In this document: piece by piece, positions 14,453 to 38,581 of the stretch
How positions within the stretch are numbered: position 1 is the first letter of the stretch
Layout: each line of letters starts with the position of its first letter
Source: Lutibacter sp. B2
GTDB taxonomy: Bacteria; Bacillota; Clostridia; Peptostreptococcales; Thermotaleaceae
Reading direction: 5' to 3'
NCBI GenBank assembly: GCA_015686845.1
Contig: JADPRS010000009.1
Location: 1 to 64,000 of the forward strand
DNA length: 64,000 bases
Notes under the pieces: generated by a model
Database searches by the model: none
Seen by the model: only the letters and a program-made list of their open reading frames with translations
What the model was told of the DNA's origin: nothing
Position numbers and translations under genes: made by a program

Positions 14453-17400
14453 TTATAATTTTTCACCATTTTTATCCAACGCTTTTAGAATTTGAATTTC
14501 ATAAGGATTATTTAACTGCTTTAAATATTTTATTCCTTCCTCACAATAATATCCAACTTCCTTTGGTAAATATTTTCCAAAGACCTCTTTTATTTTAGGA
14601 TTTTGCTCTATCCTTACTTTAATCTCTGCTTTTACTCTATACAATAATCCTAATTCATAGGGACTTTTTAATTTTTCTGCACATTCTTTTGCATCTAAAT
14701 AATACAGTAAACCCTTTTTATACTTCCCATCCATTATATATAGCAACGACATATATCCTTGTCCTGTAGACCTTCCCCAAAGTATATTTAATTTATCATA
14801 TACTTCAAATGCTTTTTTAAAATATACTTTAGCGCCATCATAATCTCCCATATCAAAGGCCGCTTGACCTGCATTGGTATAGAAAATGGTAACCCCATGG
14901 GTAATATTTTTTTCATTGCATATTTTTACAGCACGATCATAATAATTTAAAGACCTCATAAAGCTCATCTTGTGTCTTCTAATCTCGCCAAGATAATTAT
15001 ATCCTGCAGCCCTATTTAGGGTATATTTATCTTCAAATTCATTTTCTAACTCAAATACCTTAATAGACCTTATGATCAAGTCTTCTGCATCCTTGTAATT
15101 TCCCTCCATTATTTTCTGAATCCCTTTAAGCCTCCATAAAATACCTACATCCTTTTGATAATTACATGCTGTAGCTAAATCAAGTGCAAACTCTATATTT
15201 TCATCCATAAGGGTTGTATTATAAATTTGAATGCCATAATAAATCATTTGTAAGTATCCTTTAATTGCATAATCCAGGTCTTTAATCTGCATGGATATCT
15301 TTATCATATTTTGAACATCTTTAATTCCTCTTTCATATTCACCTTCTCTGATTAAGTATCTTCCCCTCATATGCAAAAATTTAACTTGTAGTTTTTTAAC
15401 TTCCATTGAAATAGGATCATTTTTTATACTCTCTATTAAATCTTTTTCTATATCTTCTAAAAAATTCACTTCTTCTTCTTGACTTAAATATCTATTATAC
15501 TCATCTTCAATATTTCCATCTTTTAATACTGGAAATAATTCATGGGCAAAATTCAAATACACATCTAAATTTTTCATTCTATATTTCAGTGCAAAGAAAT
15601 GATTTCCTGCATTTTCAAAATGATAAATCAATTTAGGGTATATTAATCGATCCCTTTTATCATGATGTAATTTTTTCTCAAGCATAAATCCTATTTGATT
15701 ATGCAATATTTTACGCCTTGCATTAGATTGCTGTGTATATATATATTCTCTTAACTTCTGATGGGTAAACGCAAAGTAAATTTTATCATGGTCACTAACT
15801 TCCCTTAATATTCCCTTTGTTTGAATTTCATCAACAATATCCATTAATTCTAATACATCGTGTTGACTCAAATCCTTAATCATATCTAAACTGATCTTAT
15901 CAAAAAACATGGAAGCAATGTTTAAAATCTTTTTTCCTTCCTTAGAAATTTCTAAAAATCTATTTTTTAATATATCTTGCATTTTAGCAGTCATTTGACT
16001 TATATCCCCATTTTGCTTTATGGTGTTAATTACTTCTGTTATAAAAAAGGCATTTCCGCCCGTTTCTTCATAAATTCTTTCATATAATTCATCCTGTAAA
16101 TTATTTTCAGGAAGTGCCATATGCATAAATTCCTTCATTTCTTCTTGATCAAATGAATTTAGACATATTTTTTCAATTTTATTGTATCTTACAGCAGAAT
16201 TAATTATTTGTTCTATTTTTCCTGTATATCCATTTCTACAAGTTCCCATTAAAAATATATTTTTATTTTTCTGATGTAATAATATATTTCTAATTAAAGA
16301 ACTACTAGCATCGTCCATCCACTGTATATCCTCAAAGCTCAATACAATTTTTCTTTTTTGAGAGACTTGATTAAGAACGGAAATCATCGCTTCTTCAATT
16401 ACTTGCCTTTGTAATAGATCTATTTTTTCTGATGTATTATAATTCATATCTATATTGTATTTTGCAAAATCAGGAAATACATTACTAATAATACTCAGCC
16501 ATAAACTTGGTATTTTTATATCTTCCTCTTTTATAATATCTAGTAATGTTACAAATACGTCATTCCAAGGCTTTAATATATACTCTTGTTCTGCTTGATA
16601 ACAATTAGATTTGATTACTACCATATCCTGTTGCTTTATACTATCTAAAAAACATTCATTTAATCCGCTCTTTCCAATCCCAGGTTCACCCATAATGACG
16701 ATGGATTTTGTTTCTTCATTTTTATCAAAAAGTTGATAATATTTTTTTAATACCTTAAGTTCATCAATTCTCCCATAAAATAAACTATCTTCTTGTCTTT
16801 CTTTCATTTCTTTTACACTTCGCCTTAATAAACTCTCGTCAAATAGTTTTTTTGTTTCTATATTAGGCTCTATTCCAAGTTCTTCTTTTAAAATTTTACA
16901 CAATTTATTATATAGATCTGTTACTTTGTGAAATACACCCTTGTCTAAATAAACTTTCATTAAAACTCGATAAGCATGTTCATCAAAATCATCTAAATCT
17001 ATTAGTTTTTTTGCACAATTAAGAACCCTTTGTTCATCATTTTTCTTAAGCGCATTTTCTATTTGCTCATTCAACTTTTGTGTATATAAATCTTTCATAT
17101 GTTCCCTATGTTGAAGCATCCATCCTTCAAATTCCTCTGCTTCTTTTACATAAAATCCTTCTAAAAATTCTCCTTTATATACATCAATACAATCTTCACT
17201 ATTACTCAAAAAATCATATAGGTCCACTTCAATATGAATCTCTGGATTTAGTATTACAGTAGATTTTTTAGGAGATATAACAATATCCATATCAAATGCT
17301 TTTCGAATTTTATACATTGCTTGTCTTAGATTTTTCTTTGCTGTCTTCTCTTCTGTTTCTCCCCATAAAATATTTACTAATGTGTCTCGGCTCGCTTGCT

Positions 17401-17515
17401 TATATACTAACAAGTAATAAAATAAAGCCTCAGCTTTTTTAAACGGAAAAGAAATCAGTTCATCATCTTTTAAAACTGTTGGATTTCCAAATAAATTTAC
17501 ATTTATAATACTCAT
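14453..17515 (-). CDS. Large BTAD/SARP-type regulator with AAA ATPase and TPR repeats
   Basis: About 1020 residues. An N-terminal OmpR-like winged helix (about 1-95: VNLFGNPTVLK, KAEALFYYLLVY, NLRQAMYKIRKAF) is followed by a bacterial transcriptional activation domain (about 98-235, with YKGEFLEGFYV and IEPNIETKKLFDESL). An AAA ATPase comes next, with Walker A GEPGIGKS at about 276-283 and Walker B around LSFEDIQWMDD. The C-terminal half is TPR-like. This layout is known from SARP/MalT-like ATP-dependent activators. I place the start at 17515, where AAAGGGTGAG precedes ATG; the open frame upstream to 17602 lacks a site. It follows the mocA-yqeC-NTPase genes by 87 bases. Its inducer is unknown. 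Confidence 0.85.
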   Translation of the reverse strand: MSIINVNLFGNPTVLKDDELISFPFKKAEALFYYLLVYKQASRDTLVNILWGETEEKTAKKNLRQAMYKIRKAFDMDIVISPKKSTVILNPEIHIEVDLYDFLSNSEDCIDVYKGEFLEGFYVKEAEEFEGWMLQHREHMKDLYTQKLNEQIENALKKNDEQRVLNCAKKLIDLDDFDEHAYRVLMKVYLDKGVFHKVTDLYNKLCKILKEELGIEPNIETKKLFDESLLRRSVKEMKERQEDSLFYGRIDELKVLKKYYQLFDKNEETKSIVIMGEPGIGKSGLNECFLDSIKQQDMVVIKSNCYQAEQEYILKPWNDVFVTLLDIIKEEDIKIPSLWLSIISNVFPDFAKYNIDMNYNTSEKIDLLQRQVIEEAMISVLNQVSQKRKIVLSFEDIQWMDDASSSLIRNILLHQKNKNIFLMGTCRNGYTGKIEQIINSAVRYNKIEKICLNSFDQEEMKEFMHMALPENNLQDELYERIYEETGGNAFFITEVINTIKQNGDISQMTAKMQDILKNRFLEISKEGKKILNIASMFFDKISLDMIKDLSQHDVLELMDIVDEIQTKGILREVSDHDKIYFAFTHQKLREYIYTQQSNARRKILHNQIGFMLEKKLHHDKRDRLIYPKLIYHFENAGNHFFALKYRMKNLDVYLNFAHELFPVLKDGNIEDEYNRYLSQEEEVNFLEDIEKDLIESIKNDPISMEVKKLQVKFLHMRGRYLIREGEYERGIKDVQNMIKISMQIKDLDYAIKGYLQMIYYGIQIYNTTLMDENIEFALDLATACNYQKDVGILWRLKGIQKIMEGNYKDAEDLIIRSIKVFELENEFEDKYTLNRAAGYNYLGEIRRHKMSFMRSLNYYDRAVKICNEKNITHGVTIFYTNAGQAAFDMGDYDGAKVYFKKAFEVYDKLNILWGRSTGQGYMSLLYIMDGKYKKGLLYYLDAKECAEKLKSPYELGLLYRVKAEIKVRIEQNPKIKEVFGKYLPKEVGYYCEEGIKYLKQLNNPYEIQILKALDKNGEKL

Positions 17516-17602
17516 TTTCTCACCCTTTATTATATATAATCTTAATAGTTTCATTATATATAATTTCAACAATAATTTGCAAATATTAAATTTTTCAATC
17601 AA

Positions 17603-18205
17603 TTATTTTGACACTTTTTTCTCTACTTTTATTGCATCTCTGTAATCTTCTTTTGTATCAATATCTAAATTATAAAATTTATTATCAAAATCAATATAAC
17701 TAACTTCATCATTGTTCTTTATAAATATGGAACGTGCCCCTTGATCTCCTATCAAACTCAATAAATCATTTTTCCATTTTAAGTGAAACAAAACTGGATT
17801 TCCTCTCTTTCTTTCATAACGTGGAACAATTATAGATGCTCTATCCGTTCTATGAAACTTATCAATAATTTCATTTATAATATTACTTTTAATAAAGGGT
17901 TGATCTCCAAGTAAAAATAAAACACCATCTGTACTTCGAGAAATTCTTTCCATCCCGGCTTTTACAGAAGTACTCTGTCCTTTTTTATAATTTGAATTAT
18001 AAATCGGTACAACCCCTTTAGTGTTTGCTATACGTCTCCACCGATCTACGTCATCTCCATGTACGATATAAATTTCATCTACTTTAGATGATTTTGCGTT
18101 ATCTATTACTTCTTCTATTATTGTATGTTTTTTAAAGGGTAAAAACAGTTTAGCTTCTTTCATTCTTTGTGACATTCCAGCAGCCAAAATAACCGCACTT
18201 ATCAT
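17603..18205 (-). CDS. MocA/YgfJ-type molybdenum cofactor nucleotidyltransferase
   Basis: A 200-residue GT-A-fold nucleotidyltransferase. ISAVILAAGMSQRMKEAKLF is the nucleotide-binding signature, and LFLLGDQPFI carries the metal-binding Asp. This family transfers CMP or AMP to molybdopterin, or acts in the selenium-dependent molybdenum hydroxylase accessory set (YgfJ). I use the ATG at 18205, with GAAGGA nine bases upstream; an ATG at 18232 lies inside yqeC and would add nine unlikely residues. The pairing with yqeC supports the molybdenum-hydroxylase accessory role. No hydroxylase structural gene is in the window. Confidence 0.85.
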   Translation of the reverse strand: MISAVILAAGMSQRMKEAKLFLPFKKHTIIEEVIDNAKSSKVDEIYIVHGDDVDRWRRIANTKGVVPIYNSNYKKGQSTSVKAGMERISRSTDGVLFLLGDQPFIKSNIINEIIDKFHRTDRASIIVPRYERKRGNPVLFHLKWKNDLLSLIGDQGARSIFIKNNDEVSYIDFDNKFYNLDIDTKEDYRDAIKVEKKVSK

Positions 18206-18218
18206 TTTTTCACATCCT

Positions 18219-18980
18219 TCACATAATTCCAACGACCTGTTCCTTTTGCATATTGCACAACAATATTTTTTCTATTTTAGATGTATCTTTTTCTCTAACC
18301 TTAATACCAATTTCTCTAGCCATAGTATAACGTTCTTTTGTATCTACTTTATTAATTAATAAAAATACCTTTGCATTTTCAGGTATCCCTTTTAACAATC
18401 CCTTATCAGAAATAACTATATTTGTAATAATATCAGGCGTAATAATTTCCTCATATTTTATTCCTGTAATTTCTGCTATTTGCTCTGGCCTATGGACAAT
18501 ATTAGAACTAAATTTTTCACCACATGCATCCATTCCAACAACAATAATTACAATCGTGCTCTTTTTTGGAATTACAGGTTCATGCGTATCTGGCGCTTTA
18601 AGTGACTTATGTTTTGCTCCATCTGCCTCTACAAGAATAATATCAAAATATCTTTTTTCATAAATTTCATCCATTTCTTTAGGTGAAATTCCTTTTAGTT
18701 TATTCTCTTTTGTAATAGATCTCCCTAGTCCAACTATTTTACTTTTTTCTGCACTTTCTCTGAGTCTTTTATCTACATTTTTTTCAGTTTCACTTATAAT
18801 CATATGTTGAACCTGTTCTCTTTCTGGAAGATAAATAGCAGTTGTAGTCGATACTAGTACTTTCTTATTTAAAAGCTTCAAATCCTTCGCTAAAGCATAC
18901 ATGGTAGTAGTCTTTCCCCCACCCCCAACAAGAGAAATCATCTCTTCTTTCTTAAACTCTAATACTTCCCATAATTTCAT
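18219..18980 (-). CDS. yqeC: YqeC-type selenium-dependent hydroxylase accessory protein
   Basis: A 253-residue P-loop protein. LVGGGGKTTTMYALA (Walker A near 18-25) is followed by VLVSTTTAIYLP, and DIILVEADGAKHKSLKAPD is the Walker B-like segment. HEPVIPKKSTIVIIVVGMDA and HRPEQIAEITG complete the YqeC pattern. The family is associated with maturation of selenium-dependent molybdenum hydroxylases such as purine or xanthine hydroxylases; the precise reaction is unknown. It lies 13 bases upstream of the mocA-like gene. Confidence 0.85.
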   Translation of the reverse strand: MKLWEVLEFKKEEMISLVGGGGKTTTMYALAKDLKLLNKKVLVSTTTAIYLPEREQVQHMIISETEKNVDKRLRESAEKSKIVGLGRSITKENKLKGISPKEMDEIYEKRYFDIILVEADGAKHKSLKAPDTHEPVIPKKSTIVIIVVGMDACGEKFSSNIVHRPEQIAEITGIKYEEIITPDIITNIVISDKGLLKGIPENAKVFLLINKVDTKERYTMAREIGIKVREKDTSKIEKILLCNMQKEQVVGIM

Positions 18981-18994
18981 ACCATCTTCTCCTA

Positions 18995-19600
18995 CTATTT
19001 CATAATTGCTCTAACAAATTCTTCTACTTGATTTTTTACCTGCATATAATTTTCTTTATCTATATTTAATATTTTTATGTCAGAATGTTCTTCTATGCGT
19101 TTGTAAGATGGATGCATCTCCTTAACTTTTTCTGCTGAGTTTTCGATTCTAGTATTCATATTATTCATGCTTTTCGGTGCTTTTAATACGCCTAAGATCG
19201 GAATATCTCCATCTACCACATCAAACAATACTTTCATAAAATCAGGCCAGTTTAACTCAACACCGCCTATTTCATCTAATACGATTAATTTTTTACCTTT
19301 AGTTCCTTTTTTCAACGCATAAAAAACATTGTCTTTAAATACTTCCTTATCTATTTTTAATTTTCCTTCACTGGTTTTCGAAAGAAACATATGCTCTATC
19401 TTTTCTATATCCTCTACAACTCTATTTACATCATATATTTCTTTTAAAGGGTTTATAGAAAACCCCATATGTCTTTGTCCAACAAATATCCTTTGAACAA
19501 AAAAACCTCCTACATTTTGAATATATGGAGATATTGCATTTTTAATCAATGTAGATTTTCCAATTTGTATATTCCCTTGTAGTAGTAAATGTTTTTTCAT
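18995..19600 (-). CDS. THEP1-like nucleoside-triphosphatase
   Basis: A 201-residue P-loop NTPase. The Walker A is QGNIQIGKSTLI (about 8-19), GGFFVQRIF follows, and LIVLDEIGGVELNWPDF is the Walker B segment typical of the THEP1/NTPase_1 family. Known members hydrolyse NTPs, but their cell role is unclear. The Walker A differs slightly from the usual G-x-P-G-x-GKTT form. Here the gene heads the yqeC-mocA unit, 14 bases before yqeC. AAAAAGGGGA precedes the ATG. Confidence 0.8.
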   Translation of the reverse strand: MKKHLLLQGNIQIGKSTLIKNAISPYIQNVGGFFVQRIFVGQRHMGFSINPLKEIYDVNRVVEDIEKIEHMFLSKTSEGKLKIDKEVFKDNVFYALKKGTKGKKLIVLDEIGGVELNWPDFMKVLFDVVDGDIPILGVLKAPKSMNNMNTRIENSAEKVKEMHPSYKRIEEHSDIKILNIDKENYMQVKNQVEEFVRAIMK

Positions 19601-19631
19601 CTTTCTATCCCCTTTTTAAACAACATACCCT

Positions 19632-19659
19632 ATAATATAAAAAAACATAGCAGATTCAA
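19632..19659 (-). promoter_or_regulatory. Possible promoter of the NTPase-yqeC-mocA unit
   Basis: -35 TTGAAT (19654-19659), 16-base spacer, -10 TATTAT (19632-19637). It is embedded in the terminator of the upstream fchA gene, so the call is tentative. Confidence 0.4.
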
Positions 19660-19669
19660 TTTGCTATGT
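19638..19669 (-). terminator. Terminator of the hut/folate gene group
   Basis: An 8-bp perfect stem (19645-19652 / 19662-19669), extendable to 11 bp with a G-U pair, is followed on the minus strand by seven T. It closes the leftward group ending with fchA. Confidence 0.82.
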
Positions 19670-19683
19670 CTTTTACTATTATA

Positions 19684-20301
19684 TTAAAGAACTACTTTAG
19701 ATAGAATATTCTTTTCTACTTCTCCGACCTTTGATTCAAGCTCTTGTACCTCTTTTGTAAGCTTTGCAACAAACGCTTCATCTTTTATAGAACCCAAATT
19801 AATTTTTACATTGTATAGAGCTGATAACACTGCGGTTCTTGCCATCATAGCAGCTACTGCTCCATCTGTAACCGCATTTTGATTTCCTTTTACAACTACT
19901 TTTTCAATGATTTCCATGATTTTAAATGCATCTTTAGCAACATCAAGTGGAACCAATGAAGCTTTTTTTGTACCTTCTTGAATGGCTTCTTTTCTCTTTT
20001 CTTTTTCTTCATCTGTTTCTTTTGGTAATTTGAATGCTGCCATTACTTCATTAAATGCATCTGAATCTCGATCTATATCATCTACAAATTTATTTCTAAA
20101 TTCAAGTGCTGCTTTTTGAACTTCTTTCATTTCTTCTTCTACTTCAACATATTTTTTCTTTCCGATTGTTAATCCTGCAACCATTTCAGTAAGTGCTCCT
20201 GCAACTGCTGCACTTAATGCTGCTACACTTCCACCACCTGGTACTGGATCACTTGAAGCTGTTTTATCTAAAAAATCTTTTATATTCATATTTGCTAACA
20301 T
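19684..20301 (-). CDS. fchA: Formimidoyl-THF cyclodeaminase
   Basis: This enzyme converts 5-formimino-THF to 5,10-methenyl-THF and ammonia. The 205-residue protein corresponds to the cyclodeaminase half of mammalian FTCD. The N-terminal FLDKTASSDPVPGGGSVAALSAAVAGALTEM region is cited here by its core, PVPGGGSVAALSAA. NAVTDGAVAAMMARTAV is a second family marker. GGGAGGG precedes the ATG by six bases. The gene follows hutI by 12 bases and works with the separate transferase gene at 21691 in moving the histidine C2 carbon to folate. Confidence 0.94.
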   Translation of the reverse strand: MLANMNIKDFLDKTASSDPVPGGGSVAALSAAVAGALTEMVAGLTIGKKKYVEVEEEMKEVQKAALEFRNKFVDDIDRDSDAFNEVMAAFKLPKETDEEKEKRKEAIQEGTKKASLVPLDVAKDAFKIMEIIEKVVVKGNQNAVTDGAVAAMMARTAVLSALYNVKINLGSIKDEAFVAKLTKEVQELESKVGEVEKNILSKVVL

Positions 20302-20313
20302 GGTATTCCCTCC

Positions 20314-21585
20314 CTAATATAATAATCCACTATTTTCGTTATTTACAACTAATTTACCACCTTTAATAACTCTTTCCACAGTATTAACCGCAATATGATA
20401 TGGAATAAATTTGTATGAAGGGAACTCAAGAATTACTAAATCTCCCTTTTTACCTTCATCAATACTTCCTATTTCATGTGCTCTATCTATTGCCGCTGCG
20501 CCATTGATAGTAAGTGCCGTAATGGCTTCTTCCGTAGTCATTTTCATGTTTAGTGTTGCTAAAGCAAATAAAAGTGGAATGGATTCTGTATGACAACTTC
20601 CTGGATTAAAATCCGTAGCTAATGCAACGGCACAATTATTGTCGATCATAAATCTACCACGAGCATATTCTTCTTTTAAACTAAAAGCTGTACAAGGTAG
20701 TAATGTAGATACAACTCCTGCTTCAGCCATTCTCTTAATGCCTTCATCCGATGCTTGAAGTAAATGATCTGCAGATACTGCACCTACTTCAGCCGCTAAT
20801 TCTGATCCTCCTAATTGAACGATCTCATCCGCGTGAAGTTTTAACTTCATACCCATTTCTTTTGCTTTATTTAGTAATTTTCTTGATTCTTCTATAGAGA
20901 ATACATTTTCTTCACAGAAGATATCACAGAACTCTGCCAAGTCATTTTCAACTACATATGGCAATACTTTCTCTATGATGAAGTCAATGAATTCTCCTCC
21001 ACGACCCTTATACTCCGTAGGTACTGCGTGAGCACCTAGAAAAGTCTTTGCTATATCCATTGGATGAATCTTCTCTAATTCTTTCATAACTTCTAATTGT
21101 TTAATTTCTGTATCAAAGTCAAGACCATAACCACTCTTACCTTCTACAGTGGTCACTCCAAACTTCAACATAGAGTCTAACCTTTTTTTACCAAGAGTCA
21201 TCAGTTCTTCCTTAGAAGCCTTTAATGTTCCTGTTGTGGAGTTTGCAATTCCTCCTCCACATTTCATAATTTCCATGTATGAATAACCTTTAAGTCTCAT
21301 ATCAAATTCTTCTTCTCTATATCCACCAAATACAAAATGCGTATGAGAATCTACAAATCCAGGCAATACAGTTTTACCCGTTGCATCAATTACATTATAT
21401 TTTGACTCATCCATTCCTTTTAAAATGTCTTCTGTAGATCCAACGGCTTTAATAATTCCATCTTCAATTATTATGGCTCCATTTTCAATTACATGTAAAT
21501 CAGACATTTCCTTTCCATGCTTTGCTTTAAATCCACTACAAGTAACTACTTGAGATGCATTTTTTATAATCATATTATTTTTCAT
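20314..21585 (-). CDS. hutI: Imidazolonepropionase
   Basis: HutI hydrolyses imidazolonepropionate to formiminoglutamate. The amidohydrolase metal motif is LPGFVDSHTHFVFGGYR (near residue 80). KSGYGLD, GAHAVPTEYKGR, KLHADEIVQLGG, SADHLLQAS and ALATDFNPGSCHTES follow in family order. The start is placed at the ATG at 21585: GGAG lies eight bases upstream, whereas the ATG at 21591 is only two bases from it. Product length is about 423, close to the usual. A long hairpin separates it from the upstream ftcD gene. Confidence 0.96.
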   Translation of the reverse strand: MKNNMIIKNASQVVTCSGFKAKHGKEMSDLHVIENGAIIIEDGIIKAVGSTEDILKGMDESKYNVIDATGKTVLPGFVDSHTHFVFGGYREEEFDMRLKGYSYMEIMKCGGGIANSTTGTLKASKEELMTLGKKRLDSMLKFGVTTVEGKSGYGLDFDTEIKQLEVMKELEKIHPMDIAKTFLGAHAVPTEYKGRGGEFIDFIIEKVLPYVVENDLAEFCDIFCEENVFSIEESRKLLNKAKEMGMKLKLHADEIVQLGGSELAAEVGAVSADHLLQASDEGIKRMAEAGVVSTLLPCTAFSLKEEYARGRFMIDNNCAVALATDFNPGSCHTESIPLLFALATLNMKMTTEEAITALTINGAAAIDRAHEIGSIDEGKKGDLVILEFPSYKFIPYHIAVNTVERVIKGGKLVVNNENSGLLY

Positions 21586-21618
21586 AGTCATTACTCCATT
21601 CTATTTCTTAAAGTATAA

Positions 21619-21690: not shown

Positions 21691-22596
21691 TTACTCCATT
21701 AAACTAGTTTCGATTACTTTATCCATTGAGAATCCGTATAACCCTAAATAGTATTCAGCACTATTGATTAATGCTTCCATAGGTACAAGTCCTATTATTT
21801 CACTTCCTAAAACATTTACGCCATATCTTCTAGCTTCCATTTTTACAGTTTCAAATACTCTGTAAACTGAAGTTTTTGTGTAGTCTGTTATATTCATGGT
21901 TACTTGGGTAATTCCTCTTTCTTTAATCTCAACGCCACCCGCTTTTATATATTTAAATCCACCACCAGAGTGTCTGATTGCTTTTGCAATTTTATTTGCA
22001 ATTTCAATATTTTGTGTATCTAAATCAATATTAAAAGCTACTAATGGCATTCTTGCACCTACAGCAATAACACCTGCTGTTGGATGAATTTCTGCTTTTC
22101 CAAAGTCTGGTTTCCACTCAGGATCTTTTAATTTTTCAGGCATTCCTTCAAATTGTCCTTTTCTTACTTTTGCAAGATTTTCTCTTTCCGGCTTACTAGC
22201 AGCTTTTTCATATAAGAATACTGGAATATTATGCGCTTCATTTATAGCTTTAGCCGTTTCTTTCGCTAACTCTATTGCTTCCGTCATAGTCATATTTTTA
22301 ATTGGTATGAAAGGTACAACATCTGTTGCGCCCATTCTTAAATGCTCTCCTTGATGCTTATTCAAATCTATAAGTTCAGTTGCGATCCCTACTGATTCAA
22401 CGATTGCATTTTTAACTGCTTCTGGTTCACCCATGATCGTAACAACAACTCTGTTATAATCCTTATCTGCTTCATAGTTTAAAAGTCTAACCCCTTCTTT
22501 TCCTCTATATGGTTCAACTATTTTTTCTATTTTGTCTAAATCTCTACCTTCACTATAATTAACTACACTTTCAACAATTTTTTTAATATCAGCCAT
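21691..22596 (-). CDS. ftcD: Glutamate formimidoyltransferase
   Basis: This enzyme transfers the formimino group of N-formiminoglutamate to THF and releases glutamate. It matches the N-terminal half of bifunctional FTCD. SVVNYSEGRDLDKIEKIVE, HQGEHLRMGATDVVPFIP and HPTAGVIAVGARMPLVAFNI are recognisable. The 301-residue length fits the stand-alone bacterial form. The cyclodeaminase is a separate gene (fchA). It lies between hutU and hutI. Confidence 0.96.
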   Translation of the reverse strand: MADIKKIVESVVNYSEGRDLDKIEKIVEPYRGKEGVRLLNYEADKDYNRVVVTIMGEPEAVKNAIVESVGIATELIDLNKHQGEHLRMGATDVVPFIPIKNMTMTEAIELAKETAKAINEAHNIPVFLYEKAASKPERENLAKVRKGQFEGMPEKLKDPEWKPDFGKAEIHPTAGVIAVGARMPLVAFNIDLDTQNIEIANKIAKAIRHSGGGFKYIKAGGVEIKERGITQVTMNITDYTKTSVYRVFETVKMEARRYGVNVLGSEIIGLVPMEALINSAEYYLGLYGFSMDKVIETSLME

Positions 22597-22622: not shown

Positions 22623-24659
22623 TTATTTCTCCATCTTGTCCCAAGCTTTGTCAACTAAATCCTTCACTAGCTCTTCTTTAGGAACATATGGTAATGTTAT
22701 ATGATCTTGTCCTTCCATAACATCATTGTACTCAGCACAAGTACTCATAGCATTTTCATTTCTTGCCCAAGCACGTCTTGCAACTCCGCCCATTACATCC
22801 CAAGGCATTGCAGATCTTAATATATCATCCACTCTCTTACTTCCATCAAGAACCATACCAAATCCACCATTGATAGATTTACCAATTCCTACTCCACCAC
22901 CATTGTGAAGTGCGATTAAACTCATGCCACGAGCAGCATTTCCTGCAAAAATGTGCGTAGCTTGTTCAGCCATAATATTACTTCCATCTTTAATGTTTGA
23001 AGTTTCTCTAAATGGTGAATCTGTTCCACCTGTATCATGGTGGTCTCTACCTAACATTACAGGTCCAATGTCTCCATTTCTAACCATTTCATTAAATCTA
23101 AGGGCTATATTCATTCTTCCAAAAGCATCTTGATATAAAATTCTTGCTTGGGTTCCTACAACTAATTTATTTTTATCTGCATCTCTAATCCAGATCCAGT
23201 TATCTCTATCTTGGTATCTTCTATTAGGATCTATACAATCCATAGCAGCATGATCTGTTTTTAATAAATCTTCATGTTTACCGCTTAAGCATACCCATCT
23301 GAATGGTCCATATCCATAGTCAAATAATTGTGGTCCTAAAATATCTTCAACATATGATGGCCAAATGAATCCATCTTTATCATTGATTCCATTTTTAGAA
23401 ATTTCGTTTATTCCTGAATCATAAATAGATTTCATAAATGCATTTCCATAATCAAAGAAGTAAGTTCCTCTTGCAGTTAATTCTTTGATAACTTCATAGT
23501 GCGCTTTCAAAGTCTCATCTACTAATCCATGGAATTTAGCCTTATTATTTCCTAGTAATTCTGTTCTTTCTTCAAAAGTAATTCCCTGTGGACAATATCC
23601 TCCAGTATATACTTCGTGACAAGAAGTTTGATCAGATAATAAGTCTATATGAATTTCATGTTTAACTGCATACTCAAGTAAATCTACTATATTTCCATGG
23701 AATGCAATTGCGCAAGGTTCTTCTTTTTCCATACATTCTTTTGCCATGCTAAATGCTTCTTCACAAGTTCTAGCAACTTTACTTACCCATCCTTGAGAAT
23801 GTCTACTTTCAATTCTTGAGTAATCAACCTCTGCTATAATACCTACGCCATTAGCAATTTCTACAGCTTTCCCTTGTGCTCCACTCATACCACCAAGTCC
23901 TGATGTTATGAATAATCTACCACTTAAATCTCCATCATTAGGAATTCCTAATTTTAATCTTCCTGCATTTAATAGTGTACTATAAGTTCCATGAACGATT
24001 CCTTGAGGTCCTATATACATCCAACCACCAGCAGTCATTTGTCCATAATTTGCTACCCCTAGTGCCGCTGCTCTATTAAAGTTATCTGGATCATCAAACA
24101 TACCAACCATAAGACCATTTGTAAGAATAACTCTTGGTGCCTCTGGTTTAGAATGGAATAATCCTACTGGATGTCCTGAATGGATTACCAATGTTTGATC
24201 TTGTGTTAATGCTTTTAAGTATTTTTGAAGCAATTGATATTGCATCCAGTTTTGACATACCATTCCTGTTTCTCCATACGTAACTAACTCATATGGATAT
24301 AAGCAAATATCAAAATCCAAGTTATTATTAATCATTAATTGAAAAGCTTTTCCTTCTACACATTTTCCTTCATATTCATCAATTGGATTCGCTTTAATTT
24401 CACCTTGAGGACGGAAACGATATCCATAAATTCTTCCTTTTGTTAAAAGTTCTTCTAAAAATTCTGGCGCTAATTCTTCATGAAACTCTTCCGGTATATA
24501 TCTTAGTGCATTTGTAAGTGCTAATTTAGTTTCTTCTTGTGTTAGTGTAAATTCTCTCTTAGGTGCACGTCTATATTGTGGATCAAACTCAGGATATTCA
24601 GGTAATACTGAGTCTAATTTTATTTTCATAGCCTTTGAAACATCTAAATTTGATAACAT
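22623..24659 (-). CDS. hutU: Urocanate hydratase, long form
   Basis: HutU hydrates urocanate to imidazolonepropionate using NAD+ as electrophile. NAD-binding and catalytic segments are clear: GQMTAGGWMYIGPQGIVHGT, TSGLGGMSGAQGKA, and the late HNGGGVGIGKSINGGFG and YQDAFGRMNIALRFNE segments. The 678-residue length exceeds the roughly 550 of proteobacterial enzymes and matches the longer version of anaerobic Firmicutes. AGGAGG lies seven bases before the ATG. The two neighbours continue the histidine pathway. Confidence 0.96.
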   Translation of the reverse strand: MLSNLDVSKAMKIKLDSVLPEYPEFDPQYRRAPKREFTLTQEETKLALTNALRYIPEEFHEELAPEFLEELLTKGRIYGYRFRPQGEIKANPIDEYEGKCVEGKAFQLMINNNLDFDICLYPYELVTYGETGMVCQNWMQYQLLQKYLKALTQDQTLVIHSGHPVGLFHSKPEAPRVILTNGLMVGMFDDPDNFNRAAALGVANYGQMTAGGWMYIGPQGIVHGTYSTLLNAGRLKLGIPNDGDLSGRLFITSGLGGMSGAQGKAVEIANGVGIIAEVDYSRIESRHSQGWVSKVARTCEEAFSMAKECMEKEEPCAIAFHGNIVDLLEYAVKHEIHIDLLSDQTSCHEVYTGGYCPQGITFEERTELLGNNKAKFHGLVDETLKAHYEVIKELTARGTYFFDYGNAFMKSIYDSGINEISKNGINDKDGFIWPSYVEDILGPQLFDYGYGPFRWVCLSGKHEDLLKTDHAAMDCIDPNRRYQDRDNWIWIRDADKNKLVVGTQARILYQDAFGRMNIALRFNEMVRNGDIGPVMLGRDHHDTGGTDSPFRETSNIKDGSNIMAEQATHIFAGNAARGMSLIALHNGGGVGIGKSINGGFGMVLDGSKRVDDILRSAMPWDVMGGVARRAWARNENAMSTCAEYNDVMEGQDHITLPYVPKEELVKDLVDKAWDKMEK

Positions 24660-24771: not shown

Positions 24772-26454
24772 TTAGAATAATCCTACAATATTTCCGTCTT
24801 CATCAATATCCATTTTATTTGCAGATGGCACTTTTGGAAGTCCTGGAAGTACCATTATGTCTCCTGTTAAGCACACAATGAATCCTGCTCCTGCTGATAC
24901 TCTTACTTCTTTTACTGTAATTTCAAAATCTTTTGGTGCTCCAAGTAAATTCTTATCATCTGATAAAGAGTATTGTGTTTTTGCCATACAAATAGGAAGT
25001 TTATCAAGTCCTAATTCTTCTAATTTTTTAATTTGATTTTTAGCTGGACCTGTAAATACAACCCCTTTACCTCCATAGATTTCTGTAACAATTTTATTTA
25101 CTTTCGCTGGAATAGATTCTTCAACTTCATAAAGGTATTTGAATTTTGGCTTTTCATTTTCAATCAATTCTACAAGCTTTTCAGCCATGTCTCTTCCGCC
25201 TTCTCCACCTTTTTCCCATACTTCATTTAATGATACTTCAACGCCTGCTTCTTCACATTTTTTCATTAGCATTTCAACTTCAGCATCTGTATCATTTGCA
25301 AATTTATTTACTGCTACCATTACTGGTAAACCGAATTTTTTAATATTTTCAACTTGTTTTTCTAAGTTAACAAATCCTGCATCTAATGCAGCTACATTTT
25401 CAATTCCTAAATCTGCTTTCTTAACGCCACCATGCATTTTTAATGCTCTTATTGTAGCTACGATTACTACTGCATCTGGTGTAAGTTCACCATATCTACA
25501 TTTGATATCTAAGAATTTCTCAGCTCCTAAGTCAGCTCCAAATCCTGCTTCTGTAATTACGTACTCTCCAAGTTTTAATCCTAATTTTGTAGCCATGATA
25601 CTGTTACAACCATGTGCAATATTTGCAAAAGGTCCACCATGAATAAGTGCTGGTGTATTTTCTAACGTTTGAACGATATTAGGCTTAATTGCATCTTTAA
25701 ATAACATTGCCATTGCACCCTGTACCCCTAATTCTCTTGCATATACAGGTTCTCCATCCATGTTATAAGCAACTAGCATTTTACCAAAACGTTCTTTTAA
25801 ATCCGTTAACCCACTTGATAAACATAATACAGCCATTACCTCAGAAGCAACTGTAATCATGAATCCATCTTGTCTAACAAATCCATTTGCTTTCTTACCA
25901 ATACCTACTACTATATCTCTAAGATTACGATCATTCATATCTAATACACGTTTCCAAATAATTTGTCTAGCATCAATGTTTAATGCATTTCCTTGGTGAA
26001 TATGATTATCTATTACTGCTGATAATAAGTTGTTTGCAGTAGTGATTGCATGCATATCTCCTGTAAAGTGAAGATTAATATCTTCCATAGGAACTACTTG
26101 TGCATATCCGCCACCTGCTGCTCCACCTTTTATTCCAAATACAGGTCCTAATGAAGGTTCTCTTAATGCAATCACTGTTTTCTTACCAATTTTATTCATT
26201 GCTTGACCTAAACCAACTACTGTAGTAGATTTCCCTTCTCCTGCTGGCGTTGGTGTAATCGCTGTTACTAAGACTAATTTTCCATCTTTTTTATCTTTTA
26301 ATCTTTTAACTGTATCTAAAGAAATTTTCGCTTTATATTTTCCGTATAATTCTAATTCATCCTCTAAAATATTCCATTCTTTTGCAATGTCTGCGATTGG
26401 TAACATATTCGCTTTTTGTGCTATTTCTATATCACTAGGTACTTTAACTGTCAT
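24772..26454 (-). CDS. fhs: Formate-tetrahydrofolate ligase
   Basis: Fhs interconverts formate + ATP + THF and 10-formyl-THF. Histidine fermentation can run it toward formate and ATP, giving substrate-level energy. The P-loop is [35 protein letters not shown] and the C-terminal [20 protein letters not shown] are family signatures. I use the ATG at 26454 (GGGAG eight bases upstream); the upstream GTG at 26463 overlaps that site. Length 560, normal. It lies inside the hut cluster but after a strong terminator, so it may start a second transcript; a TATAAT box is visible near 26500, without a good -35. Confidence 0.96.
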
Positions 26455-26533
26455 ATTCAACACTCCCTTTTCGAATTTGTTTTTCTTAATTTTTATTATA
26501 GATGTCTTTCGTCAAAAAAACGTCTCCAATGTC

Positions 26534-26564
26534 AAAAAAAATAAAACAATTTATAAATTGTTTT
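26534..26564 (-). terminator. Terminator after the racemase gene
   Basis: A 22-base perfect palindrome (26543-26564) is followed on the minus strand by about eight T. It separates hutH-permease-racemase from fhs-hutU-ftcD-hutI-fchA. Confidence 0.8.
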
Positions 26565-26628
26565 ATTTCAGATTATTGACAGTTAATCTACTTTTTTATT
26601 CATAAATAATAAAATTAGTTCTTTTAAC

Positions 26629-27462
26629 CTATAGATGTACAATTCCTTCTGCTACAATATGTACGATTCCACTTAGATGAATCTTAACAACTTGATCATC
26701 CATCCATTTCGTTATTACTTGTAACTCTCCACCAGGTTGGTTAATGATTACATCTACCCCTTTTTTATATTTATAAGAAAGAGCTATTGCTACTGCTGAA
26801 CTTCCAGAACCACAACCTCTTTCCCAAATAAGACTATCCGTTTCCTTCACATATACTAACGGCTCTATATACGATTCCTCTTCTTTATAAAACATGATCC
26901 CCAGAGCATCATATTCTGAAATATTCATATGATTCTTTACCGCCTGAAAAAACATTTTCTTTGAATCTACATCTTTACTATCTATTACTAAGTGTGCAAT
27001 ACCAGGAAATTCAACAAGTATTCCACCATATACTTTTCCATTATACGCTATAGAAAAATCTTTAATCCCTTTATGTAAAGGCATACTAGCAGTTGATCTA
27101 AAGCTTCTATTATTAATAGGTTCTACTTCACAACATATAATATTATCCGCCCCTGAAACTTCTAACGGTACAATTACCTTTTTCCCATCATTTTCAACTT
27201 CACAATACTCTTTATATACCAACGTGGCAGCTAAGGCTCTTGTTGCATTGCCACAAAATTCTCCACCCATCATCTGAAGTCTAGCGCAAGCCTCACTATT
27301 TTCATCCATCGGTTTTTCTATAAATCCCACTTGTTCTGCATAAATGCTATTATAATTCATTATTTTCTGTGCTACCTTTATATGCTTTGATCTAGGAATT
27401 TGATCTGCAACAAATACAGTCATATTCTCAGTTGGATTGGTTTTAATAAAGTTTAATTTCAT
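26629..27462 (-). CDS. CntK/DapF-fold amino acid racemase, probably histidine racemase
   Basis: A 277-residue cofactor-independent racemase of the diaminopimelate epimerase fold. The two catalytic cysteines are at residue 70 (GGEFCGNATRAL) and 217 (WERGCGSGSSAVA). The surrounding residues resemble staphylococcal CntK, a histidine racemase, more than DapF: NPTENMTVFV, EQVGFIE, SLIWERGCGSG and NQPGGEL all have close counterparts there, while DapF has MCGNGxRC and ACGTG. The gene stands between a histidine-type permease and fhs in the hut cluster, which supports D-/L-histidine interconversion. AAGGGGG precedes the ATG. Other substrates are possible; DapF itself is unlikely. Confidence 0.82.
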   Translation of the reverse strand: MKLNFIKTNPTENMTVFVADQIPRSKHIKVAQKIMNYNSIYAEQVGFIEKPMDENSEACARLQMMGGEFCGNATRALAATLVYKEYCEVENDGKKVIVPLEVSGADNIICCEVEPINNRSFRSTASMPLHKGIKDFSIAYNGKVYGGILVEFPGIAHLVIDSKDVDSKKMFFQAVKNHMNISEYDALGIMFYKEEESYIEPLVYVKETDSLIWERGCGSGSSAVAIALSYKYKKGVDVIINQPGGELQVITKWMDDQVVKIHLSGIVHIVAEGIVHL

Positions 27463-27518
27463 TGGTTGTTTCCCCCTTTTTTCAAAAATAATAACTATTC
27501 TGACAATGGTTTATAAAG

Positions 27519-27566
27519 AGAAAAGCAATCATCTATTCTGAACAAACAGAGGATGATTACTTTTCT
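27519..27566 (-). terminator. Hairpin after permease gene, weak terminator or attenuator
   Basis: A 15-bp stem (27519-27533 / 27552-27566) with one mismatch and an 18-base loop. On the minus strand it is followed by CTCTTTATAAAC, a poor T-tract, so termination is likely partial. Confidence 0.5.
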
Positions 27567-27593
27567 AATAGTTACGCTATCTTTAACAACAAA

Positions 27594-28901
27594 TTATAAT
27601 ATAAGTGATGCAACTACACCAAATAATACTAGTGGAATATTGAAGTGTAAGAAAGTTGGAACACAAGTATCCCAAATGTGATCATGTTGTCCATCTACAC
27701 TAAGTCCTGATGTTGGTCCTAATGTACTATCTGAAGCTGGAGAACCTGCATCCCCTAGTGCTGCTGCAGTACCAATCAATACAGCCGTACCTAAAGGACT
27801 AAATCCTAATTCCATGCAAAGTGGTACATAAATAATTGCGATGATCGGAATAGTTCCAAATGAAGTACCGATACCCATAGTAATGAATAATCCTATTAAA
27901 ATCATTACTACTGCTCCTAATAATTTACTTCCACCAATCATTGCTGCTGCAGAAGTTACCAATGAATCAACGCCACCTGTTTCTCTAATAACACTACCAA
28001 ATCCTGCTGCTACCAACATAACAAATGCAATAAATCCCATTATGCCAATACCACCACTCATCATTTCATCCATTTCATTCCATTTAATAGCACCAAATAA
28101 AATCATTATTAATAATCCAACCATAGCGCCTAACGGTAATGATTCCCATTTAACTTGGATAACTAATGCTGCCAATGCTCCTGCCAAAGCTACCATGTGT
28201 TTAGAGTTAAATTTAATTTCTTCTTCGTTTGCTGCTGATAATTCATCTGCTGCATCTGTCAGATTATACTCTCTCGCTTTTCTATACGTGATAAATATTG
28301 CAACTAACATACCTACTACCATTCCAAGACCAGGTATCCACATACCTTTCCATATATCAAATTTTCCAATTGCCATTCCATTTGCAGTCATCTCGTTTGC
28401 AATAATTCCATGGAATATAAGTCCAAATCCTACAGGTAATGCTACGTATGGAGTCTTAAGTCCAAACGTTAGAGCACAAGCTGCTGCTCTTCTATCGATT
28501 TTTAATTTATTCATAATTCCTAATAGCGGAGGGATTAAAATAGGAATAAAAGCAATGTGAACAGGAATTAAATTTTGTGAAAAACAACTTATAATAGCTA
28601 TAATAACTAATAGCATTCTTCCTCTGCCTTTAATTACAGAAGCTATTTTTCTAGATAAAATTGTTGCTAATCCTGTTTTATTGATCGCTACTGCTAATGC
28701 TCCAAGTAAAATATAACTTAGTGCAGTTTCTGCATTTCCACCCATACCACCAATTAACGTTCCCATAACATCTCCTATTGACATACCTGCTAAAACGCCA
28801 CCTAAAATACCAGAAATAATTAATGATAAAATTACATTCATTTTACAAAGACATAATACCGTCATTACAAATACTGATATAACAACTGGATTTGTTAACA
28901 T
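27594..28901 (-). CDS. YuiF-type permease of the NhaC-like family, putative histidine transporter
   Basis: A 435-residue membrane protein with about 12 hydrophobic segments. It belongs to COG2056 (B. subtilis YuiF), distantly related to NhaC antiporters. Markers include LIPVHIAFIPILIPPLL, ALTFGLKTPYVALPVGFGL and GDAGSPASDSTLGPTSGL plus DGQHDHIWDTCVPTFLHFN near the C-terminus. Members are often found beside hut genes and predicted to import histidine. Its place directly after hutH agrees. Substrate is inferred from context, not from sequence. A GGAGG-type site precedes the ATG. Confidence 0.85.
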   Translation of the reverse strand: MLTNPVVISVFVMTVLCLCKMNVILSLIISGILGGVLAGMSIGDVMGTLIGGMGGNAETALSYILLGALAVAINKTGLATILSRKIASVIKGRGRMLLVIIAIISCFSQNLIPVHIAFIPILIPPLLGIMNKLKIDRRAAACALTFGLKTPYVALPVGFGLIFHGIIANEMTANGMAIGKFDIWKGMWIPGLGMVVGMLVAIFITYRKAREYNLTDAADELSAANEEEIKFNSKHMVALAGALAALVIQVKWESLPLGAMVGLLIMILFGAIKWNEMDEMMSGGIGIMGFIAFVMLVAAGFGSVIRETGGVDSLVTSAAAMIGGSKLLGAVVMILIGLFITMGIGTSFGTIPIIAIIYVPLCMELGFSPLGTAVLIGTAAALGDAGSPASDSTLGPTSGLSVDGQHDHIWDTCVPTFLHFNIPLVLFGVVASLIL

Positions 28902-28927
28902 AATATTCCTCCTTCGTTTTTATTGTA

Positions 28928-28957
28928 AGATGGCAGGTTACAATTTACCTGCCATCT
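28928..28957. other. Intercistronic hairpin between hutH and the permease gene
   Basis: A perfect 11-bp inverted repeat (28928-28938 / 28947-28957). The T-run follows on the plus strand only, while the operon is read on the minus strand, so it probably does not terminate hut mRNA. Confidence 0.6.
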
Positions 28958-28984
28958 TTTTAAACATTCATTTTTAAAGATTTC

Positions 28985-30517
28985 TTAAAGTACCAATTCT
29001 CCTATAACTGCTTCCACAGCTTCAACAATAGAATTATCCTCTACCAATTTAGCCGATTTATTTATATCTTTATACATAACTCTATCATCAATCCATCTAT
29101 CAACCACTGCACGCACTTTATCGTATGCAATTTTTGTTCCTTTTCCTAATTTCTTATCTGGATTTCCAAAATCAATAGCTTGTACTGCTGTTATTAATTC
29201 TATTGCTACTACTCTACTTGCATTATAGTAAATATCTCTTGCTGTTCTAGCGGCAATGGTTCCCATACTTACATGATCTTCTTGATTTGCAGAAGATGGG
29301 ATTGAATCTACACTTGCTGGATGTGCTAAAACTTTATTTTCTGATACAAGTGCTGCTGCTGCATATTGTGCAATCATAAATCCTGAATGAAGTCCTCCTT
29401 TTGGTGTTAAGAATGCTGGAAGTCCGCTTAATTGAGGATTTACTAATCTTTCAATTCTTCTTTCACAAACATTTGCTAATTCTGCTGTAGCCATACCTAA
29501 GAAGTCAAAAGTCATAGCCATTGGCTGTCCATGGAAGTTTCCTCCAGAAACTGCATACTCATCATCAGCAAAAATCAATGGATTATCTGTTGCTGCATTT
29601 ATTTCAATATCAACTCTATCTAATACATAATTGATTGCATCTTTACTTGCACCATGAATCTGTGGTAAGCATCTTAGAGTATATGCATCTTGTACTCTGA
29701 TTTCTCCTTGACGTGTGGTTCTTTCACTATCTTCAAGTATTCTTAATAAGTTCTTTCCAGTATCAATTTGTCCTTTGTGTGGACGAACTTGATGTACTCT
29801 TGCATCATATGCATCTGTAATTCCATTTAATGCTTCAGAAGTTAATGAAGCAGAAATATCACATAATTTAGATAGATTCATTGCATCATATGCAGTCAAT
29901 GCGCCTACTGCTGTAAGTACTTGTGTACCGTTAATAAGTGCCAATCCTTCTTTAGATGTTAATTCTACTGGTGTTAGTCCAGCTTTCTCCATTGCTTCTT
30001 TTCCATCCATTAATTCGCCTTTATAATAAGCTTCCCCATCTCCAATAAGAGGTAATACCATATGTGCTAAAGGTGCTAAATCTCCACTTGCACCCAATGA
30101 TCCTTTTTCTGGAATAGCAGGAATTACTCCTTTATTAATCATTTCAATCAATGTATTTAAAGTTTCAGGTCTAATTCCTGAAAATCCTTTTGCTAATGCA
30201 TTTGCTCTTAACAACATAATTGCACGAACAATATCCTCTTGAAAATGTTTTCCTACCCCACATGCATGACTCATAATTAAGTTTTTTTGTAAATCTTTTG
30301 CTTCATCTTTTGAAATATGAACATCACTAAACTTTCCAAATCCAGTCGTAATACCATATACAACTCTTTCTTCATCTACAAGCTTGTCTACAAATGCTCT
30401 TGCTTTTTTAACTTTTACTAATGCATCCTCACAAAGTTCTACTACAAATCCTTTTCTCGCTACATTTACCACATCTTTCAAAGTTAAACTGTTTCCATCA
30501 ATAACTATTCTTCCCAT
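28985..30517 (-). CDS. hutH: Histidine ammonia-lyase
   Basis: HutH deaminates L-histidine to urocanate. The electrophilic MIO cofactor forms from Ala143-Ser144-Gly145, seen in EKGSLGASGDLAPLAHM. YGITTGFGKFSDV, RANALAKGFSGI, QDAYTLRCLPQIHGA, DNPLIFADD and SGGNFHGQPMA all match. The 510-residue length is normal. It is the first gene after a consensus promoter at 30653-30681, with a leader of about 130 bases. AAGGGAAG precedes the ATG. Confidence 0.97.
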   Translation of the reverse strand: MGRIVIDGNSLTLKDVVNVARKGFVVELCEDALVKVKKARAFVDKLVDEERVVYGITTGFGKFSDVHISKDEAKDLQKNLIMSHACGVGKHFQEDIVRAIMLLRANALAKGFSGIRPETLNTLIEMINKGVIPAIPEKGSLGASGDLAPLAHMVLPLIGDGEAYYKGELMDGKEAMEKAGLTPVELTSKEGLALINGTQVLTAVGALTAYDAMNLSKLCDISASLTSEALNGITDAYDARVHQVRPHKGQIDTGKNLLRILEDSERTTRQGEIRVQDAYTLRCLPQIHGASKDAINYVLDRVDIEINAATDNPLIFADDEYAVSGGNFHGQPMAMTFDFLGMATAELANVCERRIERLVNPQLSGLPAFLTPKGGLHSGFMIAQYAAAALVSENKVLAHPASVDSIPSSANQEDHVSMGTIAARTARDIYYNASRVVAIELITAVQAIDFGNPDKKLGKGTKIAYDKVRAVVDRWIDDRVMYKDINKSAKLVEDNSIVEAVEAVIGELVL

Positions 30518-34139: not shown

Positions 34140-35507
34140 TTAGTAATTTCCTTGTGCGTACATTGCTTCAGCAACTTTAACAAATCCAGCAATGTTTGCT
34201 CCAGCAACTAGGTTATATCCAAAACCGAAATCATTCGCAGCTTTCATAGCATTGTCATGAATATTGATCATGATTTGGTGAAGTTTTTGGTCAACTTCTT
34301 CTGCAGTCCAAGCATATCTCATGCTATTTTGGCTCATTTCAAGAGCTGAAGTAGCAACTCCACCTGCATTAGCAGCTTTAGCTGGTCCAACAATTAATCC
34401 TTTTTCTAAGAAATATTCAACTGCTTCATTTGTACAAGGCATGTTTGCACCTTCAGAAATAAACTTAACACCATTTGCAACGATTTGCTTTGCATGCTCT
34501 ATATGAATATCATTTTGAGTAGCACATGGCATTACGATATCAACTTTAACATTCCATGGTTTTTCTCCAGGGAAGAATTCTACACCAAATTTATCAGCAT
34601 AGTCCTGAACTTTATCTCTTCCAGATGCTCTCATTTCTACTAAGTAGTTAATTTTTTCTTCTGTTACGATACCTTCTGCATCATATATGTATCCATCTGG
34701 ACCTGAAAGCGTAACTACTTTTCCACCTAATTCAGCAACTTTTCTACATGCTCCCCATGAAACATTACCAAATCCAGATACAGCAACAGTTTTACCTGCA
34801 AAATCTGTGCCTTCATGTTTAAGCATTTCGTGACAGAAGTAAACTACACCAAAACCTGTAGCTTCTGGTCTAATTAAACTTCCACCATAAGATAAACCTT
34901 TTCCTGTAAGTACTCCGTTTTCAAATGCACCTTTAATTCTTCTGTAGTGTCCGTATAGGTATCCGATTTCTCTTGCTCCAACGCCAATATCTCCAGCAGG
35001 AACGTCTACATCTGGTCCAATGTGTCTATATAATTCTGTCATGAAGCTTTGGCAGAATCTCATAATTTCAGCATCAGATTTTCCTCTAGGATCGAAATCA
35101 GAACCACCTTTACCTCCACCAATTGGAAGACCTGTTAAAGAGTTCTTTAAAACTTGCTCGAATCCTAAGAATTTAATAATTCCTAAGTATACAGATGGGT
35201 GGAATCTAAGACCACCTTTGTAGGGTCCGATTACGCCATTAAATTGTACTCTGAATCCTCTGTTTACTTGTATTTTACCAAGATCATCTGCCCATGGTAC
35301 TCTGAAGATGATTTGTCTTTCTGGCTCACAGAATCTTTCTAAGATGTTTGCGTCTATATATTCTGGATGCGCTTCTAATACTTGCTCTAAAGAAGGTAAT
35401 ACTTCTTCAACCGCTTGTATAAATTCAGGTTGATCACCATTTGCCTTCGTAACGTTTTCTATTACTTGCTCAATATACTTTTTAGCATCTACACTTTGGT
35501 TTGACAT
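34140..35507 (-). CDS. gdhA: Glutamate dehydrogenase
   Basis: Hexameric-type GDH of 455 residues that interconverts glutamate and 2-oxoglutarate + ammonia. The catalytic Lys lies in PIGGGKGGSDFDPRGKS. FRVPWADDLGKIQVNRGFRVQ, PYKGGLRFHPSV and VAVSGFGNVSWGA (Rossmann motif) are clear. It resembles the NADP-type enzymes of enteric bacteria and clostridia, but cofactor cannot be fixed from sequence alone. It has its own consensus promoter with a 16-bp palindrome in the leader. GGAGG precedes the ATG. Its product could feed glutamate from histidine into fermentation. Confidence 0.96.
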   Translation of the reverse strand: MSNQSVDAKKYIEQVIENVTKANGDQPEFIQAVEEVLPSLEQVLEAHPEYIDANILERFCEPERQIIFRVPWADDLGKIQVNRGFRVQFNGVIGPYKGGLRFHPSVYLGIIKFLGFEQVLKNSLTGLPIGGGKGGSDFDPRGKSDAEIMRFCQSFMTELYRHIGPDVDVPAGDIGVGAREIGYLYGHYRRIKGAFENGVLTGKGLSYGGSLIRPEATGFGVVYFCHEMLKHEGTDFAGKTVAVSGFGNVSWGACRKVAELGGKVVTLSGPDGYIYDAEGIVTEEKINYLVEMRASGRDKVQDYADKFGVEFFPGEKPWNVKVDIVMPCATQNDIHIEHAKQIVANGVKFISEGANMPCTNEAVEYFLEKGLIVGPAKAANAGGVATSALEMSQNSMRYAWTAEEVDQKLHQIMINIHDNAMKAANDFGFGYNLVAGANIAGFVKVAEAMYAQGNY

Positions 35508-38536: not shown

Positions 38537-38581
38537 AATGTTCCCTCCTACTTTTCATTTTTCTATATTAAATAACGTTAT

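Follow-up and report, generated by a model that had tools for sequence, protein, structure and literature searches.

The gene at positions 26629 to 27462 of the window, the 64,000-nucleotide stretch of Lutibacter sp. B2 DNA that we analyzed, probably encodes a HisR/CntK-family histidine racemase that works with two cysteines and without PLP and serves histidine fermentation. The racemase falls in a hut-linked clade, and in our judgment the chances are about even that this clade represents a D-histidine (D-His) catabolic module of amino-acid-fermenting anaerobes, made up of a YuiF-type permease, the racemase and the Hut pathway, which stands apart from opine metallophores and from an ABC-linked clade and supplies the missing role of the fusobacterial HisR. 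The enzyme's family and fold, its catalytic and pocket residues, its gene context and its co-distribution with HutH were each demonstrated by computation, as described below.

The open reading frame (ORF) lies on the minus strand and specifies 277 aa, and the plus strand over the same interval is riddled with stops. The first-pass annotation had given exactly these coordinates and had named no strand. Comparison with the nearest relative found (L022, 66% identity) yielded NG86 dN and dS values of 0.213 and 1.012, indicating purifying selection and thus a gene that is maintained. When the racemase was searched against the PDB with phmmer, HisR of Fusobacterium nucleatum came first (E 9e-30), followed by CntK (E 7e-29) and then by a DapF (E 0.01). 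Pairwise identity was 36.1% to HisR and 28.0% to CntK, ruling out CntK as the nearest relative by sequence. The NCBIfam models gave 176.6 bits for HisR (NF052224, cut-off 400) and 172 bits for CntK (NF033599, cut-off 300); since both scores are below the cut-off, the racemase is related to both enzymes and formally in neither equivalog. A DapF identity was ruled out, as the DapF model TIGR00652, whose cut-off is 114.65, gave 32 bits and the true DapF of the genome (291.6 bits) is encoded on another contig. The earlier description of the product as CntK-like rather than DapF was therefore right about DapF, but HisR-like is the better term by sequence. The fusobacterial histidine racemase that the annotation mentioned does exist: it is HisR, or FN1732, of F. 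nucleatum (PDB 9CR1, 9CR6; PMC11602996).

The AlphaFold2 model of the racemase (pLDDT 94.2) has a two-domain DapF-type fold with one cysteine in each half. A structure-based alignment with CntK, the fusobacterial enzyme and DapF had been suggested at the outset. The model matched HisR with a Z score of 33.7 (rmsd 2.1, 254 aligned), CntK with 32.9 (rmsd 2.3, 259 aligned) and DapF (5m47) with 26.9 (rmsd 2.9, 251 aligned); O-ureidoserine racemase gave 28.0 (rmsd 2.4, 250 aligned). HisR and CntK also ranked top in Foldseek, and judged by the predicted fold the two are tied as nearest to the window racemase.

The catalytic cysteines are C70, in the motif GGEFCGNA, and C217, in ERGCGSGS, aligned to C67 and C209 of HisR. 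Asn18, Glu65 and Glu206 of HisR have been proposed to bind histidine, together with Glu46 of CntK, which equals Glu49 of HisR (PMC11602996). N13, E68, E214 and E43 of the window racemase align with these residues and form its proposed pocket. Across the 39 rows of the window clade, E43, Q44, E68, C70, N72, H157, E214 and C217 were kept in 39/39, and N13 in 36/39 with 3 gaps. By alignment, the racemase clades cannot be told apart by their pocket residues, and E68 is non-discriminating, as the genome's own DapF carries E there too. The E43-Q44 pair is kept as in HisR and CntK, and is replaced by D-G in three far rows (L044, L045, L047). Sequence, predicted structure and the kept histidine-pocket residues all side with the original call of a histidine racemase rather than DapF, and histidine specificity is strongly indicated. 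We consider it very unlikely that the enzyme really acts on a different amino acid, be it lanthionine, diaminopimelate, proline or other. Homologues with other substrates have the same fold, the window racemase scores below both NCBIfam racemase cut-offs, and HisR, tried on 35 compounds, acted on histidine and, about 10,000 times more slowly, on lanthionine (PMC11602996); set against this are the separate DapF, the E43-Q44 pair and the hut linkage.

As first annotated, the racemase gene (rac) lies between a YuiF-type permease and hut genes. All genes of the cluster are on the minus strand, in the order hutH, yuiF, rac, fhs, hutU, ftcD, hutI, fchA. Upstream of rac and in the same direction are HutH, a histidine ammonia-lyase (28985-30517; TIGR01225, 703.6 bits, cut-off 539.15), and the permease (27594-28901; Pfam Na_H_antiporter 237.8 bits, Na_H_antiport_2 93.1 bits, no NCBIfam match). 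The permease is a probable histidine transporter, its cargo being taken from published homologues: regulon data led to YuiF being named a histidine permease (PMC9413887), and in Staphylococcus aureus a YuiF-type protein was reported to be a main transporter of histidine (PMC10817146). On the other side of rac are the formate-tetrahydrofolate ligase Fhs (24772-26463; NF010030, 943.7 bits, cut-off 652), the urocanate hydratase HutU (22623-24659; TIGR01228, 431.4 bits, cut-off 375), the glutamate formimidoyltransferase FtcD (21691-22596; TIGR02024, 405.4 bits, cut-off 221.25), the imidazolonepropionase HutI (20314-21591; TIGR01224, 469.4 bits, cut-off 298.15) and an FchA-like cyclohydrolase/cyclodeaminase (19684-20301; Pfam FTCD_C 237 bits, above cut-off; NCBIfam FchA 203 bits, below the cut-off of 275). 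HutH, HutU, HutI and FtcD thus occur together, each above its curated cut-off, marking a hut degradation cluster. Farther out, the window encodes glutamate dehydrogenase (34140-35507) and, at 37502-39373, two ETF subunits, as would befit amino-acid fermentation.

Other genes near the cluster deserve mention. A large BTAD/AAA/TPR protein (14453-17602, minus strand) is a candidate regulator of histidine use, and at many hut-linked loci (L030, L031, L033, L034, L051-L054) a homologue directly adjoins rac or hutH. After the hut cluster, the interval 17603-19600 (minus strand) encodes MobA-like nucleotidyltransferase, YqeC and NTPase proteins by Pfam, a set that we take to suggest molybdenum-hydroxylase maturation.

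We propose the following mechanism for this module. The YuiF-type permease would import histidine, perhaps both enantiomers, with D-His as a presumed cargo. C70 and C217 would serve as two acid/base thiols that remove and return the alpha proton, and the racemase would equilibrate D-His with L-His. HutH, using L-His, would drain it as urocanate, which HutU, HutI, FtcD, FchA and Fhs would convert to glutamate and one-carbon/THF products. Because racemization is reversible and HutH acts as a drain, net flux would run from D to L, making D-His fermentable. A D-to-L role in vivo is moderately supported, and consumption of D-His appears to be better supported as a direction than its production. D-His is a competitive inhibitor of histidase, and the linkage of the racemase to HutH would also suit an enzyme that mainly clears D-His hindering HutH or other enzymes; such clearance is hard to tell from catabolism, but nothing singles it out, and we give it only a very slim chance.

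The intergenic regions contain several hairpins. In the yuiF-rac gap (27463-27593, minus strand), a T-rich stretch follows a stable hairpin (fold -33.8 kcal/mol, z -4.31), an arrangement that may leave rac partly uncoupled from yuiF. A hairpin and T run 3' of rac (26520-26628, minus strand; -18.6 kcal/mol, z -2.50) look terminator-like by eye and are absent from the consensus terminators. The 12-pair hairpin of the hutH-yuiF gap (28902-28984, minus strand) is strong (z -5.08) and lacks an obvious T run. Given the hairpins on either side of rac and in the hutH-yuiF gap, rac may be transcribed separately. Promoter and terminator scans were no richer than shuffles (54 versus 55.8 and 4 versus 3.7, respectively), and no RNA regulator was found at gathering score between 14000 and 36000.

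To place the gene among its relatives, we surveyed genomes at three levels. Racemase matches were found in 26 of 59 related genomes (E 1e-3), in 56 of 296 genomes of the order (E 1e-25) and in 6 of 393 genomes of the class (E 1e-40), the window's own among them; at this last threshold the gene is uncommon in the class. Of 482 loci in a scan of named genomes, the best 80 were kept. BLAST against window and sample proteins served to type the ORFs of 127 loci, a procedure by which distant homologues of the neighbours may be missed. Before the counts we left out 16 near-duplicates (at least 88% identity over 200 aa) and two fragments (L094, L148). L046 yielded no racemase row and L149 is without a racemase, and neither is in the counts; L153-L156 postdate the trees and are outside the counts, including L154 (41% identity), without a hut gene in its 13.7 kb, the ABC-linked L153, and L155 and L156, whose contigs equal those of L051 and L056 in length.

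A quick tree of 109 rows and a careful tree of 69 rows were built. In the quick tree the window clade comprised 39 rows (SH-aLRT 82); in the careful tree, which included fewer rows, it comprised 29 (93/86). The neighbour survey in relatives that the first-pass annotation had suggested revealed a recurrent link: among the 39 non-redundant loci of the window clade, whose named-genome part is drawn from the best 80 of 482, HutH/HutU lay within 10 kb at 22 loci, YuiF within 3 kb at 25, one or both at 27, and CntL/CntM at none. The remaining 12/39 have neither hut nor yuiF nearby; among them is L049, scored in this way despite a permease of the Na_H_antiporter family directly upstream. Less than 5 kb of flank was available on one side at 5/39 loci. 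A second clade, the opine clade, had CntL/CntM adjoining the racemase at 30/30 loci and hut or YuiF at 0/30, its named-genome part again being the best 80 of 482. In the third clade, the racemase comes last in an amino-acid ABC transporter operon in 14 of 19 rows (the order being substrate-binding protein, permease, ATPase, racemase), and hut or YuiF was seen in 1/19, namely L071. The hut/yuiF link therefore occurs at 27/39 loci of the window clade versus 1/49 in the opine and ABC clades combined. The ABC-linked rows (L072, L074, L075, L078, L086-L088, L092, L100, L116, L118, L124, L137, L138) are mainly from Anaerotignum and other Clostridia.

S. aureus CntK fell inside the opine clade in the careful tree (100/97), a good control of the tree. 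HisR stood on the window-clade side of a 100/99 branch. Forcing it to the CntK side gave an AU p of 0.057, with both reference branches long, so that the window-side place of HisR is likely, not proven. By row, 23 of 24 HUT-labelled racemases were nearer to HisR than to CntK, as were 4 of 30 opine and 10 of 15 ABC rows.

The racemase-hut link is not one inherited block, as at least five gene orders occur in the window clade. The order HutH-YuiF-rac-Fhs-HutU-FtcD-HutI-FchA is common to the window, L022, L025 and L026, and HutH-YuiF-rac-HutU to L030 and L068. In Clostridium (L051-L053, L056, L057, L059, L061), HutU and HutI are followed by the BTAD regulator and rac-YuiF-HutH. The order is rac-FtcD-HutU-HutI-FchA-HutH in L054 and L062, with an amino-acid permease ahead of rac in L054; HutU-HutI-YuiF-rac-HutH in L027; and rac-YuiF-HutH in L028. 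At L060, L063 and L066, rac is on the opposite strand to HutH/YuiF. Two far racemase lineages also adjoin hut, L071 (HutH, YuiF, rac) and L147 (YuiF, FchA, FtcD, antiporter-family permease, rac, HutU, HutI, HutH). We also noticed that the YuiF homologue of L071 (8477-9836; Deltaproteobacteria bacterium Smac51) is broken into two neighbouring ORFs, 141 and 309 aa long, that UPF0597-like and carrier-like proteins adjoin rac or hutH in several Clostridia (L029, L051, L053, L056), and that L034 carries, downstream of its racemase (14460-20000), another HutH-like lyase, a distant one (32%), as well as another homologue of the BTAD regulator.

Co-distribution with HutH, called with TIGR01225 at E 1e-100, was consistent with the linkage. 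HutH is encoded in 39/40 window-clade genomes, including all 12 whose racemase lacks hut/YuiF neighbours. In the sole exception, G065, rac lies between YuiF and HutU-HutI on a 4,960-base contig. HutH was found in 0/14 genomes with an ABC-linked racemase and in 9/21 with an opine-clade racemase (Fisher p 5e-12 and 2e-6 versus the window clade, by a test that ignores shared ancestry). The opine comparison used 21 genomes for 30 rows, with L081 and L126 outside it. L077, which has the ABC label and is placed elsewhere in the tree, is outside the HutH counts; of three further ABC-clade rows, HutH was absent for L104 and present for L125 and L071. Within the order, 21/22 genomes with the window clade encode HutH versus 156/274 others (p 1.7e-4, with shared ancestry again ignored). 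G101, the genome of fragment L148, was kept out of the 22 and has HutH.

We then considered metallophore synthesis. No match to nicotianamine synthase (cntL, PF03059) or opine dehydrogenase (CntM, PF10100) was found in the genome, the latter search being positive in 3/3 known-CntM control genomes. A staphylopine-type metallophore racemase is thereby ruled out for this genome, and the window racemase is without the adjoining cntL and cntM of a CntK in the strict sense. The first-pass annotation had noticed no nicotianamine-synthase-like gene nearby, which now extends to the whole genome, and had favoured catabolism over metallophore synthesis; this preference is upheld by the hut cluster, the missing cntL/cntM matches and, above all, the recurrent hut/yuiF link and HutH co-distribution in relatives. 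It is unlikely, in our view, that the racemase turns L-His into D-His to feed some other product (cell envelope, a non-staphylopine metallophore, a signal), with the hut/yuiF link reflecting no more than a shared histidine supply. CntK does make D-His for staphylopine, and according to PMC11602996 the F. nucleatum hisR mutant clumps and depletion of metals shifts wild-type growth towards that of the mutant, an effect that does not fit D-His catabolism. The lag in the mutant's growth is small, which likewise counts against the catabolic reading. However, added D-His did not rescue the mutant in that report, which argues against a D-His-supplying role; the linkage in the window clade is with a degradative lyase; and CntM occurs in just 2/40 clade genomes. 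One of these, G056, has two racemase homologues, a window-type one adjoining YuiF and an opine-clade one adjoining cntL/cntM (L024 and L036).

The window's genome also carries a second hut cluster (L149, G000:C76:4001-24000) with YuiF and without a racemase, whose proteins are 63% (YuiF), 65% (HutH), 47% (FtcD), 37% (HutI), 35% (FchA) and 31% (HutU) identical to those of the window. A third HutH-like gene, on contig C52, scored 505 bits, below the cut-off. No hisD match was found in this genome, and together with the racemase-less second cluster this would allow a histidine auxotroph to salvage D-His mainly for making protein rather than as a source of energy. Salvage would suit the ABC-linked clade as well, in genomes without HutH. 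Yet hisD is present in 24/40 window-clade and 12/14 ABC-linked genomes, HutH accompanies nearly every window-clade racemase, and rac is located among hut genes, so we regard salvage as distinctly improbable.

Taken together, the clade-wide racemase-HutH link would give the relatives of fusobacterial HisR a direct role, with D-His as a fermentation substrate. Counting against this reading are the 12/39 window-clade loci with neither neighbour, the pocket residues common to the clades, the hairpins around rac and the second hut cluster without a racemase. If the reading is right, D-His, whatever its source, becomes food for protein-fermenting Clostridia and perhaps for Fusobacteria. The gene context also warns against annotating such genes as dapF or taking them as signs of metallophore synthesis. 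The purpose of HisR is called unclear in the Discussion of PMC11602996, which reports that F. nucleatum depletes both D- and L-His and whose main text is without the terms clostrid-, catabol-, histidine ammonia and degradation. Histidine breakdown is reported to be altered in an F. nucleatum rnfC mutant (PMC10790702). Our literature search, with most subscription journals outside it, found no paper linking a histidine racemase to hut.

Compared with known systems, the window racemase has the fold, the two catalytic cysteines and the proposed pocket residues in common with HisR, and the F. nucleatum genome, said to encode hutH/hutU (PMC13320830), resembles the window's genome in having these genes and in lacking cntL/cntM. 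Unlike rac, hisR is described in an orphan operon by V-ATPase and pab-type genes, with no hut-type neighbours reported. CntK (PDB 6JIS, 6JIW, 6L4L) likewise has the same fold, cysteine pair and pocket residues, but belongs beside cntL/cntM in the opine clade, which matches the zincophore clusters with racemases already reported (PMC7438024). DapF shares the fold and cysteine pair, and is present here as a separate gene. The Hut pathway described for histidine-fermenting anaerobes (PMC13320830) converts histidine to glutamate with hutH, hutU and hutI, as the window cluster would, but the words racemase and D-histidine are absent from that paper's main text. As far as our searches reach, the kind of enzyme is already known and its physiological setting is new.
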